Part shown: piece after piece, positions 53,413-54,999 of the stretch
Position numbering within the stretch: the first letter of the stretch is position 1
How the letters are laid out: each line of letters begins with the position of its first letter
NCBI GenBank assembly: GCA_000378905.1
Contig: KB900573.1
Location: forward strand, 1-60,247
DNA length: 60,247 nt
Reading direction: 5' to 3'
Origin: an actinobacterium SCGC AAA028-A23
GTDB taxonomy: Bacteria; Actinomycetota; Actinomycetes; Nanopelagicales; Nanopelagicaceae
The notes under the pieces: model-generated
Seen by the model: the letters and a program-made list of their open reading frames with translations, nothing else
Database searches by the model: none
What the model was told of the DNA's origin: nothing
Position numbers and translations under genes: made by a program

Positions 53413-54039
53413 TTACTTGGAGTAAAGCTCAACGATTAGTTGCTCTTGTACTTGAGTATCAATAATTGGTCGGGTTGGAATTGCGTGAACCAGGATTCGC
53501 ATCTTTGATCCCACAACCTCCATCCAGGCTGGAACTGCTTTCTCACCAAGTTCAGCGCTTGCCACAATGAATGGTGTGGTGTCCAGCGAAGCTGGTACAA
53601 CATCAATTACATCCATTGGTGTTACGCGAAATGATGGAATGTTTACGCTCTTACCATTTACTAAGAAGTGACCGTGGCGAACTAATTGACGTGCCATGTC
53701 ACGGCTCTTTGCAAAGCCAGCGCGGAAAACTACGTTATCTAAACGAGTTTCCAGAAGTACAAGAAGGTTTTCACCAGTCTTACCTTGCAGACGGTTTGCC
53801 TCTTCGTAGTAACCACGGAACTGACGTTCTAGAATTCCGTAAATACGTGCACACTTTTGCTTCTCACGCATCTGTAGTAAGTACTCAGAATCCTTTGAGC
53901 GAGCGCGACCATGTTGTCCTGGTGGATATGGACGAGACTCAATTGGACACTTTGGTCCATCACACTTAGAGCCCTTAAGGAAGAGCTTTACTTTTTCTCG
54001 ACGGCATCTTTTGCAATCTGCACCGGTATAGCGAGCCAT
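53413..54039 (-). CDS. rpsD: 30S ribosomal protein S4 (zinc-binding C+ form)
   Basis: A 208-residue S4 with four cysteines near the N-terminus in CKRCR...CDGPKCP, so the zinc-binding form. The S4 RNA-binding domain covers LETRLDNVVFRAGFAKSRDMARQLVRHGHFLVNGK. In E. coli S4 represses translation of this same operon by binding a pseudoknot before rpsM; a candidate structure is present here upstream of rpsM. Confidence 0.97.
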   Translation of the reverse strand: MARYTGADCKRCRREKVKLFLKGSKCDGPKCPIESRPYPPGQHGRARSKDSEYLLQMREKQKCARIYGILERQFRGYYEEANRLQGKTGENLLVLLETRLDNVVFRAGFAKSRDMARQLVRHGHFLVNGKSVNIPSFRVTPMDVIDVVPASLDTTPFIVASAELGEKAVPAWMEVVGSKMRILVHAIPTRPIIDTQVQEQLIVELYSK

Positions 54040-54055: not shown

Positions 54056-54487
54056 TTATACTCGACGTGGTTTACGTGGACGGCAACCGTTATGAGGTGC
54101 TGGAGTTACATCTGCGATGGCTCCAACCTCAAGACCTGCTGCTTGTAATGAACGAATTGCAGTTTCCCGGCCTGAACCAGGTCCCTTAACAAATACATCA
54201 ACCTTCTTTAAACCATGCTCAGCTGCTTTACGAGCTGCAGCCTCTGCCGCCATTTGCGCAGCAAATGGAGTTGATTTACGAGAACCTTTAAATCCAACCT
54301 GACCAGATGATGACCAGGCAATTACTGCGCCAGCTGGATCTGTGATTGAAACAATGGTGTTGTTAAATGTGCTCTTGATGTAAGCATGACCGAAGGCAAC
54401 ATTCTTCTTATCCTTCTTACGTGCTTTAATTTTCTTAGGTGCAGCCTTAGCTGCATCCTTAGCTGGTTTAGTCTTTTCGGCGGCCAT
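54056..54487 (-). CDS. rpsK: 30S ribosomal protein S11
   Basis: A 143-residue S11 with a Lys/Ala-rich N-terminal extension and the core [40 protein letters not shown], and the C-terminal signature [17 protein letters not shown]. The start overlaps the rpsM stop by one base (TAATG). Confidence 0.98.
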
Positions 54488-54864
54488 TACTTGGTCTCCT
54501 TCTTCTTACCAGCAATTGCAACACGTGGACCCTTACGAGTACGAGCGTTGGTATGTGTACGTTGTCCGCGGACTGGTAATCCTTTACGGTGACGTGAACC
54601 TTGGTAGCTTTGAATTTCAACTTTGCGACGGATGTCGCCAGCGACCTCACGACGAAGATCACCCTCAATTTTGTAATTGGCTTCAATGAACTCACGAAGC
54701 TTTGCCAAATCTGGCTCTTGTAAATCTTTAACGCGGATATCTGGTGAGATACCGGTAGCAGCAAGTGTTGCCTGCGCACGGGTAAGTCCCATTCCGAAAA
54801 TATAGGTAAGTGCAATCTCAACACGCTTTTCGCGGGGAAGATCGACACCAACAAGACGTGCCAT
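54487..54864 (-). CDS. rpsM: 30S ribosomal protein S13
   Basis: A 125-residue S13: [25 protein letters not shown], then [23 protein letters not shown] near the C-terminus, which contacts tRNA and 16S RNA. It is the first gene of the alpha operon segment and is preceded by an unusually long 135-base leader with strong RNA-structure potential. Confidence 0.98.
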
Positions 54865-54999
54865 ATCGCTAACCTGTTTCTTTTATCCGAAAAGTCCTCC
54901 GCAATGCCTCCAAATAATTTCTTATCTGGCCTCAGCTTTTCGGACTGAGGGTCTTAATTAAGTTTGACCTTAACTAAGTCGCATCACGCGTTTTTTAAA
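54865..54999 (-). promoter_or_regulatory. Structured rpsM leader with candidate pseudoknot
   Basis: In the minus-strand RNA, CCTCAG (54950-54945), a 9-base loop TCCGAAAAG (54944-54936) and CTGAGG (54935-54930) form a hairpin. The whole loop is exactly complementary to CTTTTCGGA (54894-54886), which lies 35 bases further on and ends 21 bases before the rpsM ATG. Two GGAGG sequences with no adjacent start codon (54896-54900 and 54907-54911 in complement) lie between. This is an H-type pseudoknot or a two-state switch and is positioned like the E. coli S4 operator. S4 binding is inference. Confidence 0.6.

Follow-up and report, generated by a model that had tools for sequence, protein, structure and literature searches.

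The locus lies on the minus strand of a window of 60,247 nt (the whole stretch of DNA analysed, contig KB900573.1) from the actinobacterium SCGC AAA028-A23, the assembly of which comprises 833 kb and is 69% complete. The gene order is adk-map-infA-rpmJ-rpsM-rpsK-rpsD-rpoA-rplQ-truA, with a gap of 135 nt between rpmJ (ribosomal protein L36; 55000–55113), which adjoins the leader on its upstream side, and rpsM (ribosomal protein S13; 54487–54864), the first gene 3' of it. The gene for ribosomal protein S4, rpsD (53413–54039), is here the third gene of the rpsM-rpsK-rpsD-rpoA-rplQ operon. The Shine-Dalgarno (SD) sequence of rpsM is a weak AGGU (54872–54875), placed 3' of the pseudoknot described below and outside it; relatives have AGGU, AGGGU or, in GC-rich taxa, AGGAG in the same place.

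A preliminary description of this gap had proposed a 6-bp hairpin with a 9-base loop perfectly complementary to a segment 35 bases downstream. These elements are exact on the minus (coding) strand: CCTCAG (54950–54945), the loop TCCGAAAAG (54944–54936) and CTGAGG (54935–54930), with the complement of the loop, CTTTTCGGA (54894–54886), lying 35 nt 3' of the hairpin. The match had been judged unlikely by chance, and when the 135-nt gap was shuffled 20,000 times with dinucleotide composition preserved, one as good arose only once, a match being defined as a hairpin of at least 6 bp with at least 9 loop nucleotides perfectly complementary to sequence outside the hairpin. When both strands of the 60 kb were tested in segments sliding by five bases, a score of 9 was obtained in only 29 segments, about as many as the real site would produce by itself, and nowhere else in the 60 kb does the score seem to reach 9.

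This hairpin belongs to a more extensive fold in which a closing helix, P1, encloses three hairpins, P2, P3 and P4, and the loop of P3 pairs just 3' of P1. P1 is formed by CGUGAUGC (54981–54988) and GCAUUGCG (54900–54907). P2 (54953–54978) has 10 bp in this genome and varies in length among relatives, while P4 (CCAGAUAA/UUAUUUGG; 54910–54929) is variable and missing in part of the family. P3, identified through the hairpin search and covariation, consists of CCUCAG (54945–54950) and CUGAGG (54930–54935) around the loop UCCGAAAAG (54936–54944), the last 8 nt of which serve as the 5' strand of the pseudoknot, as supported by the swap test below. P1 is followed by the linker GAGGA (54895–54899), whose AGGA end, together with the base that opens the following strand, makes up an AGGAC that is invariant in the sequence alignment, and then by the 3' strand of the pseudoknot, CUUUUCGGA (54886–54894), which ends 21 nt 5' of the rpsM AUG. 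The nested part of the fold has a predicted energy of -39.8 kcal/mol (z = -4.67), with none of 200 shuffles equally good. Pairing of the full loop, which had raised a concern about steric fit, held up in part: all 9 nt are complementary here, but pairing of the first loop base is not preserved among relatives. The pseudoknot is effectively one of 6–8 bp with a crossing loop of 0–2 nt, and other lineages often have loops of 7–8 nt with 6–8 nt paired. It is thus a compact H-type pseudoknot, the long third loop of which holds P4 and the 3' strand of P1; with the first loop base unpaired and a crossing loop of 0–2 nt, the steric worry is largely removed. Two GGAGG strings (54911–54907 and 54900–54896), previously suggested to be SD-like sites masked or exposed by the fold, are parts of P4/P1 and of the linker between P1 and the pseudoknot, and other families do not conserve them as such, so that suggestion was not borne out.

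Covariation was studied in 120 rpmJ-rpsM gaps, all from a single family of actinobacteria with small genomes, with 39 representatives aligned by sequence alone using MAFFT; the order-level and family-level genome sets were identical (296 genomes). In this alignment the fold of P1 (8 bp), P2, P3, P4 and the pseudoknot has 91% of its cells paired, and double-sided changes occur in 27 of 32 pairs. There were 224 double-change cells as against the 79.7 expected from shuffles, a count reached by none of 500 shuffles, and sliding the partners by 1–3 columns reduced pairing from 91% to 36–42%. By helix, 98% of cells are paired in P1 (both-side changes in 7/8 pairs), 92% in the outer five pairs of P2 (double-sided changes in all five), 96.5% in P3 (5/6 pairs covarying) and 89% in P4 (4/5). 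The pseudoknot helix is 79% paired in this alignment, in which MAFFT misregisters loops that differ in length, and some genomes have a central U-U mismatch. An alignment-free test settled the matter for this helix: the P3 loop and 3' strand of the same genome scored 16.6, against 12.2 ± 0.46 for pairs swapped between genomes, and none of 1000 swaps attained 16.6 (best swap, 13.6), a few hairpins having been mis-parsed by the script. The motif [AG]GGAC stands 29–35 nt before the rpsM AUG in all 120 gaps. Conservation and covariation of both 9-base segments in close relatives, the absence of which had been named as the outcome that would count against the structure, are strongly present in both the alignment and the swap test. 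The hairpin and pseudoknot are therefore confirmed as a real conserved RNA feature within a four-helix fold. Chance complementarity without function has nothing in its favor beyond the view from a single sequence; it is refuted by covariation and conservation, and the shuffle, model-search and class-distribution results leave it a practically negligible probability.

The same architecture extends well beyond the family. A search with a covariance model of P1–P4, from which the pseudoknot was left out, found 19 genomes from other families of the class, every best hit being full-length. The tally from this search (61/388) is a lower bound, as many divergent members of the class were missed under strict filters; gaps were instead read one by one. 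In sets selected through S13, and so independent of the model, the fold was present in 35 of 35 gaps from class Actinomycetes outside the family, 30 recognized by an automatic finder and five by eye (four from Curtobacterium, with a 5-bp GGAGG/CCUCC pairing, and one from Actinomadura, with an 11-nt loop). The taxa include Streptomyces, Kitasatospora, Streptacidiphilus, Frankia, Catellatospora, Actinomadura, Gardnerella, Arcanobacterium, Rothia and Curtobacterium, as well as Micrococcales, five further families (f3, f4, f17, f26 and f28) and others. The loop and its partner change together across the class, with pairs such as CGGAGG/CCUCCG, GCGCAGG/CCUGCGU, CCGAAAG/CUUUCGG, CACGGGG/CCCCGUG, CGAGAGG/CCUCUCG and CGGGGG/CCCCCG. 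A swap test across the class gave 18.4 for matched strands and 14.7 ± 0.36 for swapped ones (0/500), a comparison that is partly selected since the hairpins were picked with pairing in mind. The element always lies just upstream of rpsM, with 17–26 nt between the end of the pseudoknot and the AUG. The fold was not found in the rpmJ-rpsM gaps of Coriobacteriia, Acidimicrobiia, Clostridia and other classes, which are mostly 1–50 nt long; the finder gave a hit in three of 14 stretches of more than 60 nt taken from other classes, namely two stretches without a detected rpmJ end and one Clostridium gap. The leader appears ancestral to class Actinomycetes, Streptomyces included.

The preliminary description knew of no actinobacterial version of such a leader, and this holds for Rfam and for the open papers searched. 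No Rfam 15 family scored at or above its gathering score at the leader, in the window or at 20 diverse loci, and permissive scans gave the same result. The only match above gathering in these scans was the L17 leader (RF03132) near rplQ; its detection before rplQ in the scanned loci shows that the Rfam search works. No earlier description was found in the open-licence full texts searched, and one elsewhere is possible. A survey publishing 20 new r-leaders included S4 leaders for Clostridia, Fusobacteriales, Bacteroidia and Flavobacteria, and none for Actinobacteria (PMC7247131). The leader is probably a new structural class of r-leader. One study of Mycobacterium tuberculosis reports a region upstream of rpsM that is 216 nt long and strongly transcribed and proposes coordinate regulation with rpoA, with no structure given in the text consulted (PMC3207917). 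The same study reports homology between the 5' UTRs of rpsM and rpoA, and for this reason a second copy of the pseudoknot was sought upstream of rpoA; none was seen, and the rpoA gap has a different conserved hairpin. This hairpin, GGAAGAUCAAAUAGAGGGUCUUCC (53358–53335, minus strand), lies in the rpsD-rpoA gap just 5' of the rpoA ribosome-binding site. In about 20 operons of class Actinomycetes it has a conserved loop of the form UCAWAUNGNGG and a changing stem (e.g., GGCAUCAAAUAGCGGGUGCC), and it had no Rfam match in those of the loci that were scanned.

A conserved, covarying structure consistently upstream of r-protein genes is what generally marks an r-leader, and it is what is found here. 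From comparative sequence analysis, the leader is probably (a probability of about 0.8) a cis-acting r-leader in the rpmJ-rpsM gap that exerts feedback control on rpsM translation throughout the class. In the proposed mechanism, P1 gathers P2, P3 and P4 into a multi-branch junction, after which the P3 loop pairs 3' of P1. The H-type pseudoknot so formed leaves about 20 nt to the AUG and about 10 nt to the SD. Excess ribosomal protein would bind and stabilize this fold, and the 30S subunit would then be blocked from a productive initiation complex on rpsM, its docking being hindered or the subunit being trapped, as for E. coli S4. Through translational coupling, the output of rpsM-rpsK-(rpsD)-rpoA-rplQ may be lowered as a whole. 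Much is known about the autoregulation of r-protein operons in E. coli and Bacillus; in Actinobacteria it is almost unexplored, with almost nothing known of it (PMC8470358). Since S13, S11, RNA polymerase alpha and L17 are all encoded in this operon, its leader would tie together the supply of ribosome and polymerase.

Two other accounts of the same structure dispense with a ribosomal protein. The 3' strand of the pseudoknot (ACCU/CCUCC) might pair either with the P3 loop, leaving the SD open, or with the SD, closing it, as a ligand-free switch responding to transcription speed, temperature or Mg2+. The strand does resemble an anti-SD sequence in many taxa (CUCC/GGAG), and the minimum free energy fold contains a local hairpin that competes with the pseudoknot. 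However, strand/SD pairing scored 10.11 for matched and 10.12 for swapped genomes, so there is no covariation, and Gardnerella, Arcanobacterium and others can form little such pairing. A switch of this kind, which corresponds to the two-state behavior raised at the outset, is therefore improbable. The leader is also an intercistronic structured segment, as would suit a role in stabilizing or processing the mRNA between rpmJ and rpsM, or in transcription attenuation, with no r-protein feedback; this too has little to commend it, and somewhat less than the switch. No U-tract follows the fold, a terminator scan gave no coding-strand site in the gap, and translation initiation is indicated both by the near-constant spacing of 17–26 nt from the AUG and by the fact that the fold is strictly tied to rpsM.

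If the leader is a feedback r-leader, the candidate ligands can be ranked. S4 stands first, at a little below even odds, and would act in cis in operons that include rpsD and in trans in the others. S13 or S11, which continue to be encoded immediately 3' of the leader in every lineage examined, taken together come next as a tentative choice, and L17 follows as an outside candidate. S4 is favored because of the E. coli precedent and the presence of rpsD in this operon, as in many other genomes. Its case is weakened by the survival of the leader in lineages that no longer have rpsD in the operon, and by the lack of a copy at free-standing rpsD. The gene is outside the operon in Streptomyces, Kitasatospora, Streptacidiphilus, Gardnerella, Arcanobacterium, Rothia, Curtobacterium and several further genomes; all of these lineages retain the pseudoknot, and most also show P1. 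No copy of the leader was found at the free-standing rpsD genes examined. Zinc-free forms of S4 have been reported outside the operon (PMC3087516), in agreement with the rpsD positions seen here. With the leader kept in operons that lack rpsD and no copy at rpsD itself, the ligand would therefore be either S4 acting in trans, or S13, S11 or L17. The several lineages in which rpsD has left the operon offer a ready natural test of ligand identity.

The upstream regions of free-standing rpsD have conserved features of their own. In four members of the Streptomyces-like family f17 (L308, L309, L310 and L312), a long conserved segment unlike the rpsM leader lies 5' of free-standing zinc-free rpsD and is possibly a separate S4 leader. 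In three members of family f3 (L262–L264), rpsD is preceded by a conserved block, GGUUGGCCGAUGCUCUCC...GGAGGCCAGUAACACUGAC, that had no Rfam match; it contains GUAA, a tetranucleotide known from Firmicutes S4 leaders. Second, non-operon, zinc-free rpsD paralogues in families f15 and f17 (L267–L269 and L313) are preceded by an AT-rich palindrome of the UUAGGCUCACCUAA type, which resembles the metalloregulator boxes of actinobacteria.

That the ligand is S13, S11 or L17 rather than S4, with L17 perhaps recruited in Streptomyces, is quite conceivable, though less probable than not. The ligand would then be a protein encoded in the operon in all lineages, and several lineages keep the leader without rpsD. 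In Streptomyces and Kitasatospora, P4 resembles the L17 leader RF03132 in carrying GUACCUGNUACGGC. A P4 with GUACC...ACGGC was seen in six rpsM leaders of these two genera (L191, L193, L199, L202, L277 and L288), and GUACC...CGGC in nine rpsD-less members of this clade; neither was seen in the rpsD-bearing member (G367), nor was the latter in two other rpsD-less Streptomycetaceae (L176 and L186). RF03132 aligned full-length to one Streptomyces rpsM leader (L199) at 21.1 bits (E = 0.57), below its gathering score of 34.9. Against these proteins, the L17-like P4 occurs in a single clade and falls short of the family cut-off, an action of S4 in trans is conceivable, and S13 and S11 are not known as established r-leader ligands. 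The likeness of the P4 tip in Streptomyces to the L17 leader is a lead only. A class-wide leader with a non-S4 ligand, kept after S4 had left, with Streptomyces gaining the hairpin like that of the L17 leader, would be a possible natural case of r-leader ligand switching, a scenario that is rather unlikely.

Among known systems, the E. coli alpha leader (Alpha_RBS, RF00140) is a functionally proven S4-controlled pseudoknot (mechanism reviewed in PMC10931766), and the actinobacterial leader lies in the same rpmJ-rpsM gap (146 nt in E. coli), as was recognized at first sight, with a different sequence. The two precede the same downstream operon and are alike in outline topology, that of a nested pseudoknot in which an enclosed hairpin loop pairs 3' of an outer helix. 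In E. coli the loop ACGGGC faces GCCCGU at the first codons of rpsM. Whereas the E. coli partner lies at the rpsM start and first codons, the partner in Actinomycetes ends 17–26 nt before the AUG, and the P2/P4 junction, the sequence and the lengths all differ. RF00140 matches nothing in the window and the P1–P4 model has no match in E. coli. The best sub-threshold match to RF00140 (19.3 bits against a gathering score of 38; L151) was rejected, as it rests mainly on the conserved start of the S13 coding sequence, leaves the P1 and P3 pairs unused and mispairs the helix. The E. coli alpha leader is analogous and belongs to a different family.

The S4 leaders of Clostridia and Fusobacteriales likewise precede rpsM-rpsK-rpsD-rpoA-rplQ (Eckert and Weinberg, 2020; PMC7247131), and the rpsD leaders of Bacteroidia and Flavobacteria (PMC7247131) and of Firmicutes are likewise conserved leaders of S4-containing operons; the actinobacterial leader had no Rfam match to any of these. 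For Bacteroidia and Flavobacteria the published motifs are hairpins, and the GUAA rRNA mimic of the Firmicutes and Fusobacteria leaders is not a conserved feature of the leader in Actinomycetes. The L17-Actino-Proteobacteria leader (RF03132) belongs to the same actinobacterial operon and its apical part resembles P4 of Streptomyces, but it precedes another gene, rplQ, has no P1/pseudoknot architecture, and shows a likeness that is missing from most rpsM leaders. The mycobacterial rpsO (S15) leader, for which pseudoknot-based translational autoregulation has been shown in vivo (PMC8470358), is likewise an actinobacterial r-protein leader built on a pseudoknot, with a different gene and a different ligand.
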